Made by a program: the position numbers and the translations under genes. The notes beneath the pieces were generated by a model. The model ran no database searches, was not told where the DNA came from, and worked only from the letters and a program-made list of their open reading frames with translations. From Liolophura sinensis (lineage: Eukaryota > Mollusca > Polyplacophora > Chitonida > Chitonidae), in the NCBI RefSeq assembly GCF_032854445.1, contig NC_088306.1, positions 1,366,501-1,430,500 of the forward strand: a DNA stretch of 64,000 nucleotides, in the 5' to 3' direction. Shown piece by piece: positions 13,895 through 44,900 of the stretch (the stretch's first letter is position 1; every line of letters starts with the position of its first letter).

Positions 13895-14452
13895 TTAGTC
13901 AACGTCGTACATTATTTCGTAGCCAGAGTTCACGTCTTCGCTTAACCAGAAAGCAAGCCCTGGCTTTGACAAACTCCTCTTTGCTCACCAGACCGTCCTG
14001 GTTCTCATCCAACTTCCGGAACAGTCGATCAATAAAGCTGTCGTCTGCTTTCCCTATTGCCTGGTAGTACGCCTTCAGCTCGTCACGTGATATGTGTCCG
14101 TCTCTATTGGCGTCCAGTCGGTCAAACAACGCCTCATAGATGGCTTTGTGGTCTCGAGCATCAGACCGTTTGATCGGAAATATCGACAGATGTCGACAAA
14201 GCCGTCTTCGGTGGACGCCCTTCTGTGCGTCGATCAGAGGGAAAGCCCTGTCGCAAAATCGCATCCAGCACTGGCGGGTGTATTTCGACTCTTCCTCGTT
14301 GGCGGACATCATGGCGGCCATTTTGTCGACTCTACCCAGGATGTCTTTACGGTAGAGGATACCATCTTTGTTTCTGTCTAAGTAACGGAAAAACATCCGA
14401 TATTTCTTTTCAGGAATTCGCTGAGGTCGGCCATTATGGTATGCTGGAATGT
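13895..14452 (-). pseudogene. EF-hand paralogue with four single-base indels
   Basis: Same layout as EF-hand gene 1: acceptor (gtgttttctctacag), short leader, ATG at 14432-14434, single coding exon, TAA at 13895-13897. Loops DRNKDGILYRKD, DANRDGHISRDE and DENQDGLVSKEE are intact. The frame is broken four times relative to gene 1: a missing G near 14413 after the EFL codons, an extra C near 14213 before the TED/TEDG codons, a compensating loss about 40 bases later, and an extra T near 13950. Translating each piece in its own frame recovers the gene-1-like C-terminus (SEDVNSGYEIMYD). Either this is a young pseudogene or the assembly carries indel errors here. A strong donor (gacag|gtaagtg) at 17967 could end its 5' exon. 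Confidence 0.82.
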
Positions 14453-14827
14453 CTGTAGAGAAAACACAGAAATTAGTACACTGAATTTGTTTGAATTCGA
14501 TTCTTTTTTTTATTTATACGAAGGGATTCATGGGCGTATGAAAGTGGCGTACACTGTGGTAGTCTATGTCATCGATCTTTCCCAGTAGTTGACAAGTTGA
14601 ATATAAATATTTGAATTTTATCCATGGGTTCAGATGTGAGAACATTAGCCCGTTATACTCAAGAAACATTAGCCCGTTATACTCAAACTTCACGTCATCA
14701 CTGATCAACCTCTGGACAACTGATCTAACCTCTATCTAATTAACATACAAATGTTTTGAGTGAAGCCGAGACTATATGTCGTGATGCGTCCCTCCCATAA
14801 CTCATCAACGGAGCACTAGGTTGAATA

Positions 14828-20474: not shown

Positions 20475-22520
20475 ATCAGTTGTATGATAGTCATAGCAAG
20501 CCAGGCCTTCTGCTCGCAATGTCACTAATAAGTTGTCTGACAGTCACAGCAAGCCAGGGCTTTAGCTGGCGAACTCACTGGTCAGTTGTCTGATAGTCAC
20601 AGCAAGCCAGAGCTTTAGCTGGCCAACTCACTTGTCAGTTGTCTGATAATCACAGCAAGCCACAACTTTAACCAGCGAACTCACTGGTCACGTCTGATAG
20701 TTACACCGAGCTAGAGCTTTAGCCGTCGAACTCACTGACCAGTTGTTTGAAAGTCACAGCAAGCCACAGTTTTAACCAGCAAACACATTGGTCAGTTGTC
20801 TGATAGTTACACCGAGCCAGGGCTTTAGCCGGTGAACTCACTGATCAGTTGTCTGATAATCACAGCAAGCCACAACCTTAACCAGTGAATACATTGGTCA
20901 GTTGTCTGATAGTTACACCGAGCTAGAGCTTTAGCTGGTGAACTCACTGATCAGTTGTCTGATAGTCACATCAAGCCAGGGCTTTAGATGGCGAACACAT
21001 TGGTCAGTTGTCTGACAGTCACAGCAAGCCAGGGCTTTAGCTGGTGAACTCACTGATCAGTTGTCTGACAGTCAGAGCAAGCCAGGGCTTTAGCTGGTGA
21101 ACTCACTGATCAGTTGTCTGATAGTTACTTCAAGCCAGGGCTTTAGCTGGTGAACTCACTGATCAGTTGTCTGATAATCACAGCAAGCCACAACCTTAAC
21201 CAGTGAACACATTGGTCAGTTGTCTGATAGTTACAGCGAGCTAGGGCATTAGCTGGTGAACTCACTGGTCAGTTGTTCTGATAGTCACAACAAGCCTCAA
21301 CTTTAACCAGCGAACACATTGGTCAGTTGTCTGATAGTCACAGCAAGCCAGGGCTTTAGCTGGTGAACTCACTGATCAGTTGTCTGATAGTTACAGCGAG
21401 CCAGGGCTTTAGCTGGTGAACTCTCTGATCAGTTGTCTGACAGTCACAGCAAGCCAAGGCTTTAGCTGGTGAACTCAGTGATCAGTTGTCTGATAATCAC
21501 AGCAAGCCACAACTTTAACCAGCGAATTCATTGGTCAGTTGCCTGATAGTTACAGCGAGCCAGGGCTTTAGTTGGTGAACTCACTGATCAGTTGTCTGAT
21601 AGTCACATCAAGTCAGGGCTTTAGATGGCGAACTCACTGATCAGTTGTCTGATAGTTACATCAATCCAGGGCTTTAACCAACGAACTCAGTGATCAGTTG
21701 TCTGATAATCACAGCAAGCCACAACTTTTACCAGCGAATTCATTGGTCAGCTGTCTGATAATTACAGCGAACTAGGGCTTTTGCCCGCCAACTCACTGAT
21801 CAGTTGTCTGATAATCACATCAAGCCAGGACTTTAGCTGGCGAACTCACTGATCAGTTGTCTGATAGTTACATCAAGCCAGGACTTTAACCAACGAACTC
21901 TCTGATCAGTTGTCTGATAGTCACATCAAGCCAAGACTTTAGCTGGTGAACTCACTGATCAGTTGTCTGATAGTTACAGCGAGCCAGGGCTTTAGCTGGT
22001 GAACTCACTGATCAGTTGTCTGATAGTTACATCAAGCCAGGGCTTTAGCCAACGAACTCTCTGATCAGTTGTCTGATAGTCACATCAAGCCAGGACTTTA
22101 GCTGGTGAACTCTCCGATCAGTTGTCTGATAGTCACATCAAGCCAGGACTTTAGCTGGCGAACTCACTGGTCAGTTGTCTGATAGTTACATCAAGCCAGG
22201 GCTTTAACCAACGAACTCTCTGATCAGTTGTCTGATAGTCACATCAAGGCAGTGCTTTAACTTACGAACTCACTGATCAGTTGTCTGATAGTCACATCAA
22301 GCCAGGACTTTAGCTGGTGAACTCACTGATCAGTTGTCTGATAGTTACAGCGAGCCAGGGCTTTAGATGGCGAACTCACTGATCAGTTGTCTGATAGTCA
22401 CATCAAGCCAGTGCTTTAACCAACGAACTCACTGATCAGTTGTCTGATAGTCACATCAAGCCAGTGGTTTAACTTACGAACTCTCTGATCAGTTGTCTGA
22501 CAGTCACAGCAAGCTAAGTC
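20475..22520 (+). repeat. Large minisatellite, 53-bp unit
   Basis: About 38 imperfect copies of a 53-bp unit: gatcagttgtctgatagtca, then catcaagccagggctttagc, then tggtgaactcact. Variant units (cagcaagccacaactttaac, cagcgagccaggg) recur in an irregular order, so the array grew by multi-unit duplications. It lies 180 bp downstream of the small secreted-protein gene B. Confidence 0.97.
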
Positions 22521-22698
22521 TTTTGCCCTCTGAGCTATAATGATACTATAACAACAGCATTAAGATTAGAGGAAAAAGAACAAAAATAGAAAAATACAAC
22601 TGATAAAAGATAATATTACTTATATTAACGAAAAAACAAAATATCGTGTTGATTTATAGTGTTGAGGGTCACCAATCTTACCTTCCAAAACTCATCCT

Positions 22699-24168
22699 TT
22701 ACATTTCTTCTTGACACATGGTGTAACCATCCGGGCAATCACAGGAACTGCTCAGGTTGTCACAGCACACGTGATCCTTCTTTTGCACAATGGCACAGGC
22801 CACGAAGGAGGCTTCTACGGGAACGATTTCAAAACGGCCTTCACTCATCTCCACCTAACGAGACAACAGGGGAAATGCAGGGATCAAAAGGGACATTCGT
22901 ATAAAAGCCGTCCAAGGTCAATAATCGTAACGCCAATTTCCAAAACAACATTCAACACAAACCACAGAAGAGCTTAGGATGCATATGAGGTTCGAAATAA
23001 ATACGGATTCACACAAAGAGAAGCAGTGAACAGTTTTCAGTGACGTTGGAAAGACGTAAGGTATGTTCCAGGATTATGAGTGAAATCAGTATTCAATATG
23101 TGTACAATAGTTCAGTTTATAAGATGGCGATAATCAAAATATGTACCTCAGCTACGCTATGATTTCAACGTGGATTGAAATACACAGGATGAACAAATGC
23201 TACAAGGTGGAATATGCTATCCACGAAGGATAACTTGCTGGGTCAAAAGTGAAAATTTTAAAGGCCCATGTAAAGATTAATATACATGCATATAAAATGT
23301 GGGAACCTGTGCTGGTGGACCGACCTGTGTCGGGGAAGACATCTTGTTTTTTACAAATGGGATCACATGTTTGTGATGTCGTAGCTGCTCTGAGCGAATC
23401 ATCAGCACACTCTTTGGTCACGTGACTAGAGAACTGGGGTCCAAACGAAGCGAACTTAACTCAGGTAAATTATAGGCTTTGAAGAAGATTTTAGTATAAA
23501 GTAATGAAAAATATAACTTTTGGCTAAGAAATCTTTTTTAGAAAGGTAATCAAAACGATAAATATAAGTGTTATAATATGCCAGGAAGCAGTTTCGACCG
23601 GTGCACTTCAGTACGACCACGCATGAGCAGAACAGCTCATACAACGGACAGATAAAAGCACATGGCGATTTAAGCACATGTTACAACGTTGAAGACTTTG
23701 GTAACAGTCCAGCCAGGATTCAGTTCAATTCTAGTTTCCTGTGTGTATTTTTTTTAAGTTTTTGATTGAAATTACGATGGAGACCGCACAGTATAGTTTG
23801 TGTCAGAAGATCAACATAAAACGCGCAAACTTTGCGGAGTTGTGTATTGTTTGCTATCACCCTCTCAGACACGGATTTGTCATGCGCAGTCAAAACCGTG
23901 GAAGCGGAAAAAGCGTGTATGGCTTAAAATAACAATCAAATAAATGACTAAATAAATAACAAAATTATTGTTACCAGATGTAATGAATGTGTCATACCTT
24001 TCTACACATGGTCTCGTAGTCATGACAACATATTTCGTTGAAGCAGCAAAAGATTTTTTTCCCGTGAATATTCATCGTCAGATGTTCACACATGTTTCTC
24101 GCCGACACGAAGGTTGTCATGGCAACGAGCACGGCACATGTAACAGCGATGACGTGGCTGGTCTTCAT
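22699..24168 (-). CDS. Small secreted 12-cysteine protein (gene B), two exons
   Basis: Exon 1 is 23998-24168 (ATG at 24166-24168, 57 codons, donor AAG|gtatga). Exon 2 is 22699-22854 (acceptor gttgtctcgttag, TAA at 22699-22701). Both junctions are phase 0. The 108-residue product starts with a hydrophobic signal peptide (HVIAVTCAVLVAMTTFVSA), then has 12 cysteines spaced C-13-CC-4-CC-6-C-21-C-9-CC-6-C-1-C-6-C. The same cysteine order occurs in gene A at 31314, with CCFNEICCH here matching CCFEKLCCH there. I do not recognise the family; it is inferred to be extracellular and disulfide-rich. Phospholipase A2 and granulin patterns do not fit. A donor-like AACCTC|gtgagt at 28196 might end a 5' exon, which would put two minisatellites in its first intron. 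Confidence 0.78.
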
Positions 24169-24617
24169 GACGGCTAATGCCTCCAGACAAAAATGAAATA
24201 GACACCTGAAGTGGTAAAAACGGGAACAGAAGCTTCACACATTTTCATATACTTACACATCCTGCAAGAAAACATGTTGCATTTTAAATACTTATCAGCA
24301 GTGTTTGAAATTATTTATGAATAAGAACTATTAATAATGCCAAGTTTTTAATTTTATAAAGCCTTTCGGGTTATTTAAAAAATATAAATGGGACTACATA
24401 ATATATGTGGGAAAAGTAGTTGTTAAATACACAAGAAATAGCATCGTAAGAAAGAATGCACCGAACCCATCACAGGGCAACTCTAAGATTTTACACGGTC
24501 ATCGATCGTAGAGACTGAACTGAACACATTGCGTGCACAGGTTGGCCATTACGAGAAAACTATCATGTAATTACAACAGTTATTGGTAAGAAAATATTTG
24601 ATGTTTGGCCCTCAATG

Positions 24618-25112
24618 GCTTTCGCCACCACAGACTGGTTTCCGTAACGACTGACTGCCTTTCCTAACCACTGACTGACTTACTTCACCACTGACTGACT
24701 TTCGTAACCACTGACTTACTTACGTAACCACTGACTGGCTTTTGTAACCACTGACTGACTTACGTAATCACTGACTGGCTTTCGTAACCACTGACTGACT
24801 TACGTAACCACTGACCCGCTTTCTTAACCACTGACTAACTTTCGTAACCACTTACTGACTTACTTTACCACTGACTGGCTTTCGAAACCACTGACTGACT
24901 TACGTAATCACTGACTGGCCTCCATTAACGACTGACTGGCTTCCGTAACAACTGACTGACTTACGTAATCACTGACTGGTTTCCGTAACCACTCACTGGC
25001 TTTCGTAATCACTGACTGACTTACGTAACCACTGACTGACTTCAGTAAACACTCACTGGCTTTCGTAACCACTGACTGACGTACGTAACCATTGACTGGC
25101 TTCGGTAACCTG
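24618..25112 (-). repeat. Minisatellite, 20-bp unit
   Basis: About 25 tandem copies of a 20-bp unit (cactgactgactttcgtaac and variants with tacgtaac, ggctttcg). Confidence 0.97.
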
Positions 25113-25429
25113 GGGTTTATGACAAATACATTAAGGAGGTGGACCATTGCCATGGCTTACAGAGAATTAGGTCAAAATAATTCAAGCATTTTGATTGAAT
25201 ACAAAATGTTACTCGGCTAGAATAGCTCAAATGCTGGGTAAGAAATTATTGGGTATCAAACATCACTTATCGCTGCTTTGCCGTGATTGACTTTGTCTAT
25301 CCGACAGCATGCGCGTGCATCCCCGAGCACCTGAACAAGTCTTTGATCATGCGCTTTGAAAGATGATTGATTGACGAAATGATTGTTGTGTAAGTACATA
25401 CTCAATAATTTCATACAGGTTAATTTTAT

Positions 25430-27588
25430 GATGGTGGCTAGTTTTAACGGATGGAGGTTAGATTTATGAAGATGGTCAGTTTCACGGATGGAGGTTAGAT
25501 TTATGGAGATGGTCAGATTCACGGATGGAGGTTAGATTTATGGAGATGGTCAGATTCACGGATGGAGGTTAGATTTATGGAGATGGTCAGATTCACGGAT
25601 GGAGGTTAGTTTTATTGAGGTGGTCTGTTTCACGAATGGAGGTTAGTTTTATTGAGGTGGTCTGTTTCACGAATGGAGGTTAGTTTGATGGAGGTGGTCA
25701 GATTCACGGATGGAGGTTAGTTTTATGGAGGTGGTTAGTTTCACGGATGGGGGTTAGATTTATGAAGATGGTCAGATTCACGGATGGAGGTTAGTTTGAT
25801 GGAGGTGGTCAGATTCACGGATGGAGGTTAGTTTTATGAAGATGGTCAGATTCACGGATGGAGGTTAGTTTGATGGAGTTGGTCAGATTCACGGATGGAG
25901 GTTAGTTTTATGGAGATGGTCAGATTCACGGATGGAGGTTAGTTTTATGGAGATGGTCAGATTCACTGATGGAGGTTAGTTTGATGGAGGTGGTCAGATT
26001 CACGGATGGAGGTGGTCAGATTCACGGATGGAGGTTAGTTTTATGGAGGTGGTTAGTTTCACGGATGGAGGTTAGTTTTATGAAGATGGTTAGATTCACG
26101 GATGGAGGTTAGTTTTATGGAGATGGTCAGTTTCACGGATGGAGGTTAGTTTGATGGAGGTGGTCAGATTCACGGATGGAGGTTAGTTTTATGGAGATGG
26201 TCAGTTTCACGGATGGAGGTTAGTTTGATGGAGGTGGTCAGATTCACGGATGGAGGTTAGTTTGATGGAGGTGGTCAGATTCACGGATGGAGGTTAGTTT
26301 GATGGAGGTGGTCAGTTTCACGGATGGAGGTTAGTTTGATGGAGGTGGTCAGATTCACGGATGGAGGTTAGTTTGATGGAGGTGGTCAGATTCACGGATG
26401 GAGGTTAGTTTGATGGAGGTGGCTAGTTTCACGGATGGAGGTTAGATTTATGAAGATGGTTAGATTCACGGATGGAGGTTAGTTTGATGGAGGTGGTCAG
26501 TTTCACAGATGGAGGTTAGTTTTATGGAGATGGTCAGATTCACGGATGGAGGTTAGTTTGATGGAGGTGGTCAGATTCACGGATGGAGGTTAGTTTTATG
26601 GAGGTGGTTAGTTTCACGGATGGAGGTTAGATTTATGAAGATGGTTAGATTCACGGATGGAGGTTAGTTTTATGGAGATGGTCAGTTTCACGGATGGAGG
26701 TTAGTTTGATGGAGGTGGTCAGATTCACAGATGGAGGTTAGTTTGATGAAGGTGGTCAGTTTCACAGATGGAGGTTAGTTTGATAGAGGTGGTCAGATTC
26801 ACGGATGGAGGTTAGTTTGATGGAGGTGGTCAGATTCACAGATGGAGGTTAGTTTGATGAAGGTGGTCAGATTCACAGATGGAGGTTAGTTTTATGGAAA
26901 TGGTCAGTTTCACGAATGGAGGTTAGTTTTATTGAGGTGGTCTGTTTCACGGATGGAGGTTAGTTTGATGGAGGTGGTCAGTTTCACGGATGGAGGTTAG
27001 TTTGATGGAGGTGGTCAGTTTCACGGATGGAGGTTAGTTTGATGGAGGTGATCAGTTTCACGGATGGAGGTTAGTTTGATGGAGGTGGTCAGATTCACAG
27101 ATGGAGGTTAGTTTTATGGAAATGGTCAGTTTCACGAATGGAGGTTAGTTTTATTGAGGTGGTCTGTTTCACGGATGGAGGTTAGTTTGATGGAGGTGGT
27201 CAGTTTCACAGATGGAGGTTAGTTTTATGGAGGTGGTCAGTTTCACGGATGGAGGTTAATTTTATGGAGGTGGTCTGTTTCACGGATGGAGGTTAGTTTT
27301 ATGGAAATGGTCAGTTTCACGAATGGAGGTTAGTTTTATTGAGGTGGTCAGTTTCACGGATGGAGGTTAGTTTGATGAAGGTAGCCAGTTTCACAGACGG
27401 AGGTTAGTTTGATGGAGGTGGTCAGATTCACGGATGGAGGTTAGTTTTTTGGAGGTGGTCAGTTTCACTGATGGAGGTTAGTTTGATGGAGGTGGTTAGT
27501 TTCACAGATGGAGGTTAGTTTGATAGGGGTGGTCAGTTTCACTGATGGAGGTTAGTTTTATGGAGGTGGTCAGTTTCACGGATGGAGG
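25430..27588 (+). repeat. Large minisatellite, 37-bp unit
   Basis: About 58 copies of a 37-bp unit (ggatggaggttagtttgatg, then gaggtggtcagattcac). Within each unit gatggaggt occurs twice, so the unit itself arose from a shorter repeat. The plus strand is almost free of C except in tcac/gtca, giving a strong G-over-C skew over 2.1 kb. Confidence 0.98.
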
Positions 27589-27971
27589 AAAACGGGGTAC
27601 CCGGTATAAACAACCTACCTTTGACAAACTACTTCACTGTGCAAAAAGCTGTAAAAGGTAAATATGTAGAGGCCAGCCAAAAGCTATACAACCTAAATTC
27701 CGGTACCGGTACTAAGCGATATTTTTCGTAGTTAGGCTCAAGCCCTCAGCAGTCAGCAAAAGTCTCCATACTCAACGTTTGTCATTCAGTTTGCTTCAAA
27801 ATGAATTTAGATCCAGACAAATAATGTTCGACCGATATCAAATTTGTGAAATACCGTTTAAACCTTGGTAAAGTTCAAAACACCTGGACAATGAAAGATA
27901 TACTTATGCATGGATAATTACAAGTGTTAAACACGTTTCGAATTTAAATTACTTGATTGTAAAAAAAATAA

Positions 27972-28110
27972 ATGCTCTGCAGCAACCTGTGGATGGTCGT
28001 GGATTTCCCCCGGCTTTGTCCAGTTTCTTCCAGTATATTGCTGGTTGCCATCGTATAAGTGAAATAGTCTTGAGTACAGTGTTAAACACCAATCGAATAA
28101 ATAAATAAAA
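27972..28110 (+). repeat. SINE family A 3' fragment
   Basis: Plus-strand tail half: gcaacctgtggatggtcgtg through cttgagtacagtgttaaaca and an AAAT-repeat tail. Confidence 0.85.
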
Positions 28111-28195
28111 CAAACTAAAGAAATGCTCGTACAAAATAAAAACACAAACAACAGAAAGCACTAAATTAATAAACGGTAAAAGATGATAAACTCAC

Positions 28196-30300
28196 GAGGT
28201 TAGGGTGATCAGCACAGGTCTGCCACTAATGGAAGTAAATTGTCGCCTGGCTAGAAACAGTCACGTGACTGACTCCATCGTCCAAGCTGCTTTATTGACC
28301 AATCAGGGTGTTTATTCTTCAACATCTGTCACGCACAAATAAGACGACTGGTCCCCTGGTTTACTTGTTTAATCAGACTAATTATAAATAATTCTACGGT
28401 TAGCCACCGACCACGTACCATTCCATAACCCAGGGTGAAATGTAAATTTTATTTGGATTACGTCGATACCATGTTCATCTCTTATCAAATCCACAGCTGT
28501 GTGTTTAAAAGATAAATTTTAATACAAATTTCAGAATTCCATCCTCCATGTAAATTTGATTTCTATGTTCTCTTGTATTCCTTCAGTTTAAATGACTTGT
28601 GTTTAAAGAATAAATTTTAAATACGAATTTCGGAATTTCTGTCGCTGTGTAAATTTTAATTCTGTTGCCCGTTGTACTTTTGTCATTATAGATGCTATAA
28701 TATTTTGTATTCCACATAAATAAAGCAGATGAATCCCAACGTCATGTAAACATGCAAAAATAAACACAATAGAAAAGTTACCAGCATTGGGATATTTTTT
28801 GTGAATGTGTCGGATTGTTATTATTTAGGAGTGATGCATGGTTAATAATAATAATAACAATGATGATGATGATGATGATGACGACGACGACGACGACGAC
28901 GATGATGATGATGATTTCAGTATTTGCTAACTCGGTGTCATTTATTTCCATGGTTGTTTAACACTTCACGAGTATTTCATTTATACGCTTGCGTTCAGTT
29001 TTAAGTTTTAATGGGTACACAAAACCAGTATGAATAAACCCTTTAAACTCTATCTGCGCTATACACATATATTTGCCATATAGTTTCAAATCCTGATCAA
29101 TTGGCATCGTACATATCTATGTAGGTTTATTTGTGAAAATAATTAAACAGTAACAGGTAACTGATCACTCAGTTTATCCTCTACATAATCTGTTACCAAT
29201 ACCATCGCTGCAGGCCCTCTTGTCTGGTATAACCAAAGGGCGATAATCCGCGCGCACCTGTTACTGGGATAACGCTGTGACGGCATGTGTAATACATACT
29301 TGTAAACACGGAGTCATTGTAAACAAACCGTTCACGCTGAGAGATTATGCCTGCCCAAAACTTCTGTCAATACTGATGTATTGTGCAGACTACCACAGAT
29401 GCTGTTAACTTTGGTCATTTATTACCGATTATCTGTCAGAATGTCATTTAATTGTCGACTAAAAATGAACCAGTATTTAGGAGAAGTTCAAAAGTTTATT
29501 CCGGTTGCCATGTTCTATATGTTTTTTATTCTAATTTCATGAACTGCTAAATTCAGAAACTGACACTTTCACAAATCTGAACACGATTGAGTTTCTAAAC
29601 TGAACGAAAGAATAATGCAACTAAATAAAGTTAGAACTCATAATGATTCTATATAAAGGCGACTATACACCTATTAGACACCCTTAATGCATCTCACCAT
29701 TTGCTGGAGATGAGTTCTTCAACAGTCTTGTTGAACACAGCTATATATATTCTCAACAAAAGAAGGCGCGGTTGGGAAGGAGTGGGAGTGGCCGAGAACT
29801 CTCAGAATCATTTAATAAGTAACCAATTTAAGAAATAACTAATTTAACAAATACATATTGTTTACCAATGACCAAATCTAATTTACTAACTCCTGGTATA
29901 ATAGCTGATACAACGCTGTAACTTCACACGCGATATTACACTCGTAATAACAAATGTCATATTATACTTGTAATAACATATTATCGTGTGAAATATCCAA
30001 CATTTTCTTGTGAACTTTCTTCTGATTCCCCTTAACATAAAGTAATTTATTTATTTATCTATTTATTTGGTCAATGTTTTGCGACTGACTCAAAGATTTT
30101 GCTAAATACTGCGGTGGTTCTGTTTATGGAAAGACGAACTTTACAGAAAGAAAAATAAAATACGATTAAAATATTTGCCATGCAATGTTGCTGAATTTAG
30201 TTTTTGTATTTATTTATTTATTAACATCTTCCTTGGGGGCGGGGGGCGTTTGGGAGTCGTGTAATTTGGAGTGCTATCCACGTTGGCTGCTATTGGTGAT
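28196..30300. other. Gene-free region between the divergent secreted-protein genes
   Basis: No coding exon seen. Holds a cacgtg-containing palindrome (agtcacgtgact, 28258-28272), a compound ATA/GAT/GAC trinucleotide tract (28846-28914), and AT-rich unique sequence. If the donor-like sites at 28196 (minus) and 30430 (plus) are real first-exon ends, the promoters of genes B and A both lie here. Confidence 0.4.
28846..28914. repeat. Compound trinucleotide repeat
   Basis: (ATA)n, then (GAT)n, (GAC)n and (GAT)n. Confidence 0.97.
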
Positions 30301-30429
30301 TGCAACTGGGAAGAACTTGTGCGCATGCTCAAGTGAAGTTTTCTCGGCAGCTGTAACCAAGTCACTCCATGTCGAACAGTCTACCTGGACTCATTAGCTA
30401 GGCAGTTGGGGAGACTTTTTCAACCAAAG
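30300..30429 (+). other. Possible 5' untranslated exon of gene A
   Basis: A strong donor (accaaag|gtgagtg) ends at 30429, and the coding exon of gene A begins with an acceptor at 31304-31305. Joining them gives a normal intron of 876 bp. The 5' boundary is unknown; this is inference from splice sites only. Confidence 0.35.
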
Positions 30430-31305
30430 GTGAGTGTTTTCATTTGTTGTAGCAGGTTAATTGTCACATCAAGATGTTAAATGATCACGTTAAACAAAAT
30501 TTTATTCAAAGGCATGACTTACGACGTTTAAAGCAAAGAAGGTAAATAAGCGCTTGTCAGTGTCCTTTGATTGATTTTAAAAATCTTTCCTTATCTCTCA
30601 TTTTCTTATCTAAATACACAATTCACACAATAATGGTAATTATATTATAATGGTTTACATAAAACGGATAAAGAAATAATATAAAAAGGCCACAGCATAA
30701 ATACATAGGCGTAAAAAGAACAGACATACTTATACCAGCCGTCAGTCAAAATAGACGTTCCAAAGAGAGTAAAAGTGATATCGGTAAACGCTAATATTTT
30801 GAGGGAAAATGTATTCCGATGAGAAGTGTTACGAAGTGGACATTTTATTTACGTGGAATCCTTGTGGTGTAATGGACAGGTCTAATGGGGTGAATGTAAC
30901 AGGGTAGAACCTACTGGACACCAACAAAGGGGCAAACTTGAATTTCCTTTGACCTACTGTCTCAGCTATGGCTGGACAGAATATTCGCATAAAGTTAAAG
31001 ATTTCGGGTGTTTTCAATGTGGAGGAAGAGGTCAGCTAAGCTTAAGTAACAACCCGTGTGTTAAAAGTATACGACAGATTGAATGAATAAATTAAGCAAT
31101 AAATAACTGAATGACTGAGTGGCAAATTGGCTGACTAGCTCAATGAACGGATTAATGAATCAATCACTAAACCAAACAATTAATCAGCAAAAACAATCCA
31201 TAAATCAATCATCAAACATTCAATCAATCAAGAAATCAACTAAAGCAAGCAAACAATTAAATCAATAAATTCACTCCATCAAAGTGAAACTGTTGACTGT
31301 TACAG

Positions 31306-31677
31306 ACGCCACCATGTCTCCAAAGCTGACCGGCCTCGCCGTGCTGCTCATTGTCTGCGCCCTGCCCACGTCTCTGTGGGCTAGCGTAACCAGTGACGAC
31401 TGTGAGTTCCTGTCCCTGGGTGCCGGCTACTACTGTTGCTTTGAGAAGCTCTGTTGTCATGCCATGGTCAACGCTCACCGCTGCAACAAGGTGTACAACG
31501 CGCAGACCAAAAAGTTCATCGTGACACCACCGGAATCCGCTGTGGAGGTGCAGTGTGAGAGGTCTTTCAAACAGGGACTGGACAGGGTGTGCTGTGTGCC
31601 TCCATTGGACGGGCCTGAACATGATCACTGTTACTGCCCCTCCCCACGGCGCTGGTGCGAGCCAGAAGAGTCCAGTG
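31306..31677 (+). CDS. Small secreted 12-cysteine protein (gene A)
   Basis: Starts at ATG 31314-31316 in a strong context (gccaccATG), eight bases after an acceptor (gttgactgttacag). The signal peptide (LAVLLIVCALPTSLWA) is followed by 12 cysteines spaced C-10-CC-4-CC-8-C-23-C-11-CC-11-C-1-C-6-C, the same order as gene B at 22699-24168. A donor (CCAGTG|gtaaga) at 31677 would send translation to an unseen last exon in phase 1. Read straight on, the frame instead stops with TAA at 31740-31742 after about 20 further residues including one more cysteine. The intron that splits gene B after AAG is absent at the matching AAG|GTG codons here (around 31490). Function unknown; extracellular and disulfide-bonded by inference. 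Lower confidence applies to the 3' end only. Confidence 0.75.
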
Positions 31678-31967
31678 GTAAGACAATTCTTATTAGGCTT
31701 CCAAGTCGAACGCCGGAAACAGGTGGTTCTTGCAGGGAATAACACAATTATTGTTTGCTGACAGTGGTTTTTGTCGTTGTCTAGAAAATTGCAAATGGCA
31801 GCAGCTTTGAAATTTGACAGCAAGAATAACACGGATATTATGTCAGCATTTTGAAGTTTGTTCTTTTAACTTTTTGTAATATAGTATCGCTAGGTATGTG
31901 CTTCCCGTGGCATTTGCATGTATTTGAACTACGGTTAATAGTTTTCTCTCTACTCTCAAACATCAAT

Positions 31968-38900: not shown

Positions 38901-41900
38901 TAATAGGAACTTAAACTTCCCTAACACCGGGGCATAAGCAGAATTCTCCATTCTAATAAACTATATACATAATTAGATTCTAAGAGGCATATACGCACCG
39001 ATGTAAACAGAAAAAGGTTTTTTTTTTTGCATCATATAGAGTAACGGTATAAAATGATACAGATAACCTAAGGTTGTAAGCTATTTGATCTCACTTGCGA
39101 TTTGAAGAACATTTTCGTCAAGCCAATAAACCACGACAACAAAAAAGGTGAGAACAATTAGTAAATAGTAACAAGTTACAAACGGCATGTGCTTTTTGAA
39201 ACACTGACAAATGAAAAGCCTTCACATGCGCACATCAAAGCAAACGAATGATAGACGCATATTTCTATCATAATGGAACCTAATACAGCATGAGGCTCAA
39301 GTGAGAGAAAGTAATATAAATCAGTACCTGATGATTGGTTGGGGAGGCTCGGCGCAAGTGTTGTTGGGAAGGGTTCGTCACTTCCGTCTGCGCAGTCATC
39401 GACTCCGTTATCAACCAGTCGGAGATCGACACACGAGCCGTCATCGCACGTGAACTCTGAAGGTGTGCACTGTGGGAAGACAAGGTTAGAGTTCGTGTTA
39501 AAGACAAATTTTCAAGATGGGCTTGTATATTTCGACATTTCACGTATATGACAGCAGTAAGGTTTGTGATGGAGGAAACCAGAGAGTGAACTAACTTTAT
39601 AACATTTTCTGTCAGTGTTTTTAGAATGTCAAAAATGTGGTGTCACATAGTCACTAAATGTAGCAGTTTTGTGTCCAAGTGAAAAACCCAAACAGAAAAA
39701 ATAACTGACAAATGTAACACAATTATCATCTTGTATTTACGTTAAATCAAAAACTTAAAGTTGCAGTTTATCTTTTACATATGTTGCATATGTTTGTTGA
39801 GAATGCCACCTACCGGAATGTGAAGGTAAAATGTAAAGGAATCGTAAAGCGATGTTATATATGATACAGTTAACAGTAGAATGAAGGCCAATTGAAAGTC
39901 AATACTGAAACATAAGGTTTTACCTCAGCCAATGAAATGTTTTGTGAGTTACACTGAACGGGCGGAGTGCTGCCAGTGGGGCTTGCTTCTGTAAACGAAA
40001 TGGAACACATTTCTCCTGAAGATGTTGCACGTGGTATTTCAAAAGTAAGCGAGTTAATATAATGTCAATTTAAATACTTAAATGCTTAAATATACAATAC
40101 AACTTAATAGTTAAAAAACTTAAAGGTATCCAAAATGTGAGTGTAATACCATGACAACCATGTGTGTGATACATTAAATAGTGTTTCTAATTTACTTTGT
40201 AGCCTAAATCCGTATGGCCATCTAGACAAGGTGTCAACTAGAGGTTTGAGGACAGGTCATCAGCCTGGTGAATTAACTGTCGCAGGCAAGAAAGCCTTCA
40301 AGTTCAAAGGGGAACAACAACAAAAGGAAGACTGTTACAGGAAAAAGGCAATGTTTGGAGACGTAACAAAATGGGGTTGAACAGAAAGAAGGTCTGTTTT
40401 TGGTGGCATGCAGTCATGCGCACAGCAAAGAGATTTCAAGGAAACCGTATTTACTTAAGACTTTCTTTAAGACCCCTTTAATCTTACGGCAGTAGCCACA
40501 GCTTTTGGCGCAGTTAAGTTCCATGTTGGCCGCATCACTCTCACACTTCCCGTTCGCTTTCTTTGTTGCACAGTTCGCAAGTTTGTCCTTACATAGGCCT
40601 GGGAAAAAACACAACTAATGAGTCACAACTAAACAGTCACCATTAATGAGTCACATTTATAAGTCATAACTAAACAGTCACCATTAATGAGTCACATTTA
40701 TAAGTCATAACTAAAGAGTTATGTCATGGTTATTTTTATGATAAGTTTCAACAGTTTCTTCTGAATAATTGTTCAACAATTTGGTAATTTTGAATACTTG
40801 TGCAGTGCTCGAATGAATGAAACAGATGATCGGCTCTTAAATGTATTAAAATGCACAGGAAATACATATCCATTACTATATGATTTCTCGTGATTTTCTT
40901 TCCTTTTTTTGCGAGAAAACCCGTCTCACAAAAAGCATCTGACTTACTTTCACACTGTAGTCCACCGTATCCAATTGGACATTCACACCGACACGTGGAT
41001 GTGTTCAGAGTACCGCAGTTGTGACAGGCGCTTATCTTACACGTTTGGCATTTATCTCCCTTGAATGGCAGACGACACCTACAATTGTCGCCAAATTCCC
41101 GTTCGTTGTTACACTGACATGTGTCCGTTACTGGGTCCATAAATTCCCCATTAAAACAAACTTTTCTGCTTGTCAAGCTACAATCAGAACCTGAAAGAAC
41201 AAACCATATCCAGTTTCAAATGGCAGCCAGCATTATGATAAGAGGAAGCTGGGCACAGCCTGGTGGGGTGTCAAGGTCATTATCACGTAGGATTGGAGAG
41301 GAAGCCAGCATGAGCTGGACAGTCTCATGTAACTTTTAAACTTTACAATGTAATACACTGACTTCTTCATAATTAAATAAATTTAACCCTCTGTCCACAA
41401 ATGACAGAACATTCCATTCGTTTTTGCCTTCCTCATCGTATAAACGTAGTATAGGACAACAGATTGGAAACGTAAATAACAGAGTTTTAAGTGACGTTAA
41501 TATAACAATTGCGATATTTATTTCTAAATTGTATGATAATTCAGATTATGTGTTTTTTGTGTTTGAATGGAGTGTAGGGAAATTAGGTTCCATAGGACAC
41601 TCCAAAATATAAAACAAGAAATAAGAAGTGGATTTCTTTTCCAGAGGCCACTTTCACAAAGGTGCATACTTGTACGATATCGCACATATAGGACAATGGT
41701 AAGTTAATAGCGACGTATAAAATATCGTAGGCTTATGACAAATGCTTTGTGAAAGTCGTCCCATATCTTTAGGGAAGAATTCCAAAACTGACATCTCATT
41801 AAAGTGACCAAGGAGGTGATAATACAAATACAAAACGATGAAAACCAGGTTGTGCTGGGAAAAAGTCACGGACCCAGATATGTAATTAACAAAAACGCTG

Positions 41901-44900
41901 TAATCAGCAGGTACATACCCCCAAATCCGGGAGGACACTGACATCCGCAGTTCCACCACGTGCCACCGTTTTGACAAGTTCCATTACAATGGCGATCTGA
42001 AAAAAAGACCACTTTTATATATACAAACCAGCAAAGATATACAAGAAAGTGTATAACAAATTAGAATGACATCATGTATGGCGGGCATTGAACAGTTGTC
42101 CATTAAAACACACCAGGAATGCTCTAAACCCTTAAATTTAATCATTTAATTTGCCCCTGGGAAACGCTCGACCATCCACAGGTTCGTAGTAATTTTGGGA
42201 CTTACTGCTAAGTGGCATGGAGAAATCAAACTCTATTCCATTGTTGACTGCACCTGTTGTCTGGTAAACCTGAAACAAAAGGGCACCGCTTTATAATCCC
42301 ACATACATTCAGTGCGCATGGACATGTCAACAATTTCATACAAGGCACAGTATTTGCTGCAGACAGAGTATAAAATTTGATAATATCTAAAATGAGGTGT
42401 AGTTCAAATGTGATACAAGTATAAACCTTAAAAAAAATAAAAAAATATTTACTTTATTTATTTTGAATTCATCGCTTTTTCGGTAGAGAAAATAGCACGT
42501 AAGACTGAAAAATGACCCACAATTGAGGAAAAGGGGGAGAAAACTTCACGGCAGAAGATATAACCATTAATAATTAAACACTTGAGAATTCTGAAGCAAC
42601 TCGTCAGATTCTCCGTAATACTGTTCAGGATCCTGATTCTTGCCGTGGCATTTAAGAGTTGGGAATGACGTAAAGGGAGAGATTTTTATTGATAAATCCT
42701 CATATCTATTCGCTGACGACGTTTCGATGTAAAAACTAACATCGTTGCTAAACTCTTTTTCCACAAGAAATCTTAGCCAATCGGAATTGTCGTACTATTT
42801 CAAATGCCGCCTACCTTTACAATGAGAGGCTGGTCTATTGGTCCTTTGGCCAGCAGATATTCTCGGCTGTCGTATCGCCACGCAGTGCCGCCAAAACTGA
42901 CCTCTGACGTTAGCGTGTCCGCCACGCCGCTACTCCCTGATCTTTGTGCCAAAATCGCTACGCCATCCTTCGTCCAAAGTTCTATGGGCATAATCGAACA
43001 TTGCTAAGGTATATTTTCACGTGCTTTAAGACAAAATGGAAAGAGATTTCAAGCGCGATTTGAGCCTTTTCTTTCCTAATCAAAGAATACACTGCTTTCG
43101 GAGATGACTGGTTGTTTGGGTAGCTTAAAGACAGAGATCGTTGGTTCAAATCCCCAACTGGTAAGCCCCGTCACGTTGTTAGATTTGTTTTGTTCTATTG
43201 AATGAGTGTTGGGGTTTAACGTCACGCTCAACAATTTTTCAGTCATATGACGACGAAGGAATCCTTAGGGTGTATGTAATGTACCTCCTTGTTGCAGGAC
43301 GGATTTCCACCGCTCTTTTATCTAGTGCTGCTTCACTGAGACGACTTACTGAAGGTAAGTGAGCAGCCCCGCCCGAGCCATTATACTGATATGGGTCAAC
43401 CATTCGTTGCACTAACCTCTTCATGCTAAAGTCTTAGGTGTGACGCGACCCAGGATTGAGCTTGGATCTACCGCTCCCGAAGCGGACGCTCTACCAACTA
43501 TCAGGGCCGGTCGTTTGTTCTATTGAGATTTAATGGCAATTTCAACTTTCATTTCGGTCATGGATATACCAAGACCATGTCTCATTTTCACTGTTCCACC
43601 CCAATGATTCTTGGTGCAAAGCCATGCCGAACACACTAGACATGACGCCCCAATCACGATTTCTATTCATGACTTACCCAGGTACATTCTAGGGGCCCGA
43701 GCCTTCTGTCGCTTCATCGCGATCTCGATGTCGTACGATCCGGCAGGAAGGTCGATCACAGTTATACGTTTTCCTGTAGCAGTGAAATATTTAATTTATT
43801 CAGATGATTTGTATTAAATATGGAAACACAATGGCTGTCAAGTTTATATGATGGAAGGTAAATCGGGAAGAGCGTCCCACATACGACCGGAGAGGAAACC
43901 AATATAAGCTGGATGCGATCGCATTGGTGGTTAACTACCACAAACACAAGATGTTGATTTGAAATAGAAAAAAAAACAGACATTCGTACCTGGGTCTGAG
44001 CGCACATCCACTCCGGATACAGCGTCACAGCTGAAACCATCCCCGCCACAAACTCCGCATCTGTCAAATGTTTTCCCGGGAAGTTTACCGTCACAACCAA
44101 AAGCCTTAAAATATAATTCAACAGTAATTTTGAACGAGTATATAGATGAGCATGAACTGCAAAATCGGGAATTTGAGAAACTTTTTTCAGAAGTTTGTTA
44201 ATAGTTGTAATGTAACTTGCAACATCTCTTTGACATCTCTAAAACTAGGTTCATTATTCGGTCATTGAACAAAACAGAGTTACCTACCTTACAATGACCT
44301 CTGACACAGTGACCCTTGAGCCCGGCAGCTCTGGGCCAGTCAGATCTCTCTATATTCAGATCACAGGGCACCCCGTCGTCGTAAAGCCCCCACTTCGTGT
44401 AGAGTCCGTTACTTCCGCCGTCTATACGATCACACTTTATCTCGCACTGACCGATTCCTGAGGGAGAGGTCAATTTTATGATTCACAACGACAAAAAATA
44501 ATATTCTCTTTGTAAAAAGACAATTAGACTTCCTACTGATATTAAATTTAGCTTTCAACAACTTTTAAAAAAAAACATTCCCTTGACATTCCCGCGCTTC
44601 TTCCAACTTCGATTTCTGCCAACAAAAACTGCTCTGTTTAGTAATTATAATACTATACGTGTGGTAAAAGTTCAATACAAGCAAGCCAAGAGACAGCCTC
44701 TAGTGCGCCAGGGGTTTATAAGTGGTATGCATGTGGCTGGTGTCAGAGGATTTTGCTCACTTAACGTCTTACCACAGCTGTAAGTCTGCACACTAAGCAA
44801 ATGAAGGCTAGGTGAATAGTACAGGAATGCTTGTCCCCTGCTACAAGTGTACTAATAGTGTGCCAGCAGCACACCACTACATCTCCTCTCTTTAGCCTTC

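Follow-up and report, generated by a model that had tools for sequence, protein, structure and literature searches.

Two open frames lying head to head in a 64,000-nucleotide stretch of a chiton genome (Liolophura japonica; the whole stretch is termed the window below) raise the questions of what proteins they encode, whether the two are related, and whether they belong to a family that has already been described. We consider it probable (roughly 0.6) that these genes, designated A and B, are a diverged duplicate pair coding for predicted secreted disulfide-rich proteins.

Gene structures and the cysteine framework

Genes A and B are divergently oriented, with an ATG-to-ATG interval of 7145 bp (Table 1). 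The two predicted exons of gene B, with both strands read, yield a product of 108 aa when joined in phase 0, and its stop lies 4 residues past the last cysteine. Splice sites were ranked by a generic matrix and scored against all GT/AG sites of the window; on this scale, the gene B donor and acceptor fall within the top 1.0 and 2.9%, respectively, and the candidate donor of gene A at 31678 (GTAAGA) within the top 1.1% of GT sites. A further candidate donor directly follows the stop codon of gene B and possibly marks an intron in its 3′ UTR. The main exon of gene A begins with the first base past a candidate 3′ splice acceptor and ends with the last base before the candidate donor; a last exon past 31677 was looked for by splice-site scoring and was not identified. 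Should this donor be unspliced, the frame would read through to the next in-frame stop and gain a 13th mature cysteine. At the counterpart of the gene B intron position, the frame of gene A continues without an intron. A GTAAGA donor stands shortly past the last cysteine codon in both genes, which makes it unlikely that A is a simple retrocopy. GC content at third codon positions amounts to 0.70 for A and 0.59 for B, whereas 4 kb steps along the window have overall values of 0.38-0.45.

Table 1. Features of genes A and B, in positions of the window.
Feature	Position	Strand	Description
Gene B	22699-24168	minus	two exons, intron between
Gene B exon 1	23998..24168	minus	leader and first six cysteines; donor AAG/GTATGA
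Gene B intron (predicted)	22855..23997	minus	GT-AG, phase 0
Gene B exon 2	22699..22854	minus	second six cysteines and stop
Candidate donor GT right after gene B stop	22680..22681	minus	AAG/GTAAGA, top 0.1% of window GT sites
Gene A main exon	31306..31677	plus	candidate acceptor, ATG 31314, leader, 12 cysteines, candidate donor
Gene A counterpart of gene B intron position	31491..31492	plus	AAG/GTG, weak donor, top 9.4%
Gene A read-through (alternative if 31677 is unspliced)	31678..31742	plus	in-frame stop at 31742

Reading of both strands agrees with the original prediction that each gene encodes a leader followed by cysteines in the order C-CC-CC-C-C-CC-C-C-C. The mature parts contain 12 cysteines each in this order (13 in A with the 3′ read-through), spaced by 10,0,4,0,8,23,11,0,11,1,6 residues in A and by 13,0,4,0,6,21,9,0,6,1,6 residues in B. 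The claim of exactly 12 cysteines thus holds for the mature part and fails for the whole protein, since each leader adds one more (residue 15 in A and residue 11 in B). When 12 cysteines were scattered at random over the length of B 200,000 times, 163 placements showed this adjacency pattern. As for the proposed common block CCF-E-CCH, the CCF and CCH triplets are shared, while the glutamate is offset by one position (CCFEKLCCH versus CCFNEICCH). Both leaders look like signal peptides, as had been suggested, by hydropathy rather than by a signal-peptide predictor (best 11-residue means of 3.07 and 2.94 for the two proteins). As far as sequence can tell, the hydrophobic N-terminal leader and the even number of mature cysteines place both products in the broad class of secreted disulfide-rich proteins.

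A 2.1 kb minisatellite of 37-base units (25447-27588) with strong strand asymmetry (G 0.366, C 0.079) lies between genes A and B and is adjoined by a 20-base array at 24619-25110, and a 2 kb array of 53/106-base units (20476-22514) lies just past the 3′ end of gene B. The minus strand also carries a related pair of EF-hand genes (Pfam EF-hand) at 2254-2841 and 13902-14513. The former is one open frame; the latter consists of homologous pieces in alternating frames and therefore represents either a decayed copy or assembly indels. No RNA gene was found in the window, with no Rfam match at the gathering threshold and no tRNA.

Relatedness of the two genes and copy number in the genome

The alignment of mature A with mature B scores 95, at 33% identity. 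None of 5000 full shuffles of B reached this score (maximum 67), and neither did any of 5000 shuffles with the cysteines fixed (maximum 94, one point short); the similarity therefore exceeds mere cysteine placement. Within the window, a tblastn query with B picks up A at E 3.9e-6, and the reverse query picks up exon 1 of B at E 0.007. Most of the similarity resides in the N-terminal halves (p 0.001 with cysteines fixed), whereas the C-terminal halves, compared by themselves, show weak similarity (p 0.0055; with cysteines fixed, 0.068). Exon 2 of gene B aligns with the C-terminal half of A, and the alignment has no gap at the predicted splice junction (K/V in both). On these grounds, A and B are homologues by sequence, and the earlier view of them as a related, divergently oriented pair is borne out, as is its observation that the cysteines are conserved more than the rest of the sequence: all 12 are kept, and the remainder has diverged.

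This pattern also bears on the possibility that one or both genes are pseudogenes or unexpressed relics. The uncertain 3′ end of gene A and the alternating frames of the nearby EF-hand copy at 13902-14513 lend it some colour, yet neither frame is interrupted in its 108 or 121 codons although identity is down to about 33%, and all 12 cysteines are retained in both. Unconstrained sequence would hardly keep both frames at such divergence, and we regard decay or silence of either gene as improbable.

To estimate the number of family members, we searched the genome (609,464,459 bases in 632 contigs). The signature CCF-x2-[FILMV]-CCH occurs at 5 places in the 609 Mb genome and at none in the reversed control; of the five, A and B alone show an open frame that fits. 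The other three places were rejected as a simple repeat (on C2) and as short frames of 16 and 30 residues (on C7 and C8, respectively). The looser pattern CCF-x3-CC is found at 324 places versus 157 in the reversed control; 30 of the 324 were read as loci, and in all 30 the open frame at the match is without the 12-cysteine arrangement, A and B being among the remaining 294. Genome-wide tblastn with B recovered, apart from its own locus, A (E 0.004) and two weak matches interrupted by stops (C7, E 0.05; C1, E 4.8); reading of both loci revealed no comparable frame. With A as the query, the only match besides its own locus was a weak one containing a stop (C5, E 1.0). Neither search returned a further convincing copy. 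Since the search with A at E≤10 did not recover B, and since copies with an altered signature could escape the pattern search, two members is a lower bound. A profile built from A and B was run against 212,346 bases comprising the window plus the full set of 44 loci, in which A and B themselves recur, and only A and B exceeded the inclusion threshold; the best remaining match is the 30-residue frame on C8 (E 0.098), a place picked by the pattern itself and too short to judge. Flanking sequence was examined up to 10 kb beyond each end of the window.

Comparison with known families

Neither A nor B matched any of 24736 Pfam models at E≤10, a setting at which the HMMER filters drop most matches above about 0.1; the profiles covered include those of granulin, neuroparsin, EGF, WAP, and VWC. 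Extension of A by its read-through gave no Pfam match at E≤0.01. Among PDB sequences, nothing matched A or the A/B profile at E≤10, and the matches of B to a cyclin (E 0.18) and a haemoglobin chain (E 0.38) were set aside as unrelated and at chance level. The string CC-CC-C-C-CC and the cysteine blocks of A and B do not occur in the open-access library searched, and the open-access text examined yielded no matching family. The original prediction had recognized no known family either, and across Pfam, the PDB, and this literature none was encountered. AlphaFold modeling of mature A from the single sequence gave a mean pLDDT of 41.5, which is unusable.

Granulins and neuroparsins are also secreted proteins with 12 cysteines, and their cysteine order differs from that of A and B. 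Chitons are not known to have venom. Con-ikot-ikot and other cone-snail superfamilies are secreted molluscan proteins classed by cysteine framework, as A and B can be (PMC6471451). In the part of that source covered here, one con-ikot-ikot is listed with 12 cysteines; unlike A and B, however, the con-ikot-ikot frameworks listed begin with CC-C-C-C, and neither A nor B shows the framework CC-C-C-C-(C)-CC-... (PMC6471451). The remaining cone-snail frameworks, as given in the portions of PMC6471451 and PMC6891753 used, have at most 10 cysteines versus 12 in A and B. Glycoprotein hormone beta subunits are another secreted group with 12 cysteines (PMC4772807).

Mytimycins, the antifungal peptides of mussels, resemble A and B in being secreted, molluscan, and cysteine-rich; in the variant studied most closely, a leader of 23 residues is combined with 12 cysteines (PMC8004829). 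Mytimycin arrays I, III, and V contain three CC pairs, a further likeness to A and B (PMC8004829). The type III array (12 cysteines) nevertheless reads CC-C-C-CC-C-CC-C-C-C versus C-CC-CC-C-C-CC-C-C-C in A and B, and none of the arrays of types I-V in Table 1 of PMC8004829 is that of A or B. The length of the mature mytimycin, 54 residues, is a further difference (PMC8004829). The same source describes a mytimycin with a C-terminal EF-hand extension after a dibasic site (PMC8004829), whereas B has no such extension.

Some cysteine-rich families of molluscs are restricted to certain taxa, and mytimycins have been suggested as one case, confined to Mytilida (PMC8004829). A and B could be divergent members of a described molluscan cysteine-rich family (whether of antimicrobial peptides, prohormones, or shell-matrix proteins) that is missing from Pfam and the PDB or from which the pair has diverged too far to be recognized, and the family search covered Pfam, the PDB, and open-access text only. 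Against this stand the lack of any Pfam match, a cysteine order unlike the mytimycin arrays and cone-snail frameworks in the source portions compared (PMC8004829, PMC6471451, PMC6891753), and the acidity of both mature proteins (pI 5.47 and 5.02), a property at odds with the cationic character typical of antimicrobial peptides. We hold membership in a described family to be possible, though doubtful; an orphan pair of secreted disulfide-rich proteins is a plausible description of A and B.

Possible two-module layout and role

The intron of gene B divides the 12 cysteines into two six-cysteine halves with like spacing. The half spacings are 13,0,4,0,6 and 9,0,6,1,6 in B and 10,0,4,0,8 and 11,0,11,1,6 in A, and by gap permutation the likeness of the halves within a protein has p 0.004 for A and 0.0007 for B, values obtained post hoc from two proteins that are not independent. 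Within A, the residues of the two halves show no significant similarity (p 0.72); within B, similarity is marginal (p 0.03; with cysteines fixed, 0.09), and the cross pairs display none (p 0.38 for the first half of A with the second of B, and p 0.58 for the first half of B with the second of A). A protein built of two six-cysteine modules is therefore only suggested as a lead, because the layout was spotted post hoc in two related proteins whose halves share little residue similarity. Among the cone-snail frameworks listed in PMC6471451, one set of six cysteines ordered C-CC-C-C-C has one entry, from C. quercinus.

A secreted, disulfide-braced product is favoured because a leader is combined with an even set of conserved cysteines and with free variation elsewhere. 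According to the reading of A and B as a diverged pair, the two divergently oriented genes would have arisen by duplication and then diverged. Each product would be small (85-98 residues when mature), would enter the secretory pathway, and would be locked by up to six disulfide bonds, probably as two six-cysteine lobes with the arrangement C-CC-C-C-C, one per exon in B; the intron between the lobes would have been either lost by A or gained by B. The disulfide scaffold of such a soluble extracellular protein may present variable loops to a partner, and any one role among ligand, inhibitor, and matrix component can be proposed tentatively.

Chitons are an early branch among molluscs, and few families of secreted proteins have been described from them. 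Conceivably, though we would not assume it, A and B represent a family specific to chitons or aculiferans, with an undescribed framework and a fold of its own derived from a duplicated single-exon module of six cysteines. Should the pair prove to be expressed and to occur across chitons, it would provide a named framework for following the emergence of new disulfide-rich extracellular proteins out of modules the size of a small exon; at present, it adds another orphan pair of cysteine-rich genes to the molluscan record.

Elsewhere in the window, on the minus strand at 39179-44197, exon-like pieces at 39179-39511 and 43934-44197 match, respectively, an LDL-receptor class A domain and an ADAMTS cysteine-rich domain, and perhaps belong to one ADAMTS-like gene.
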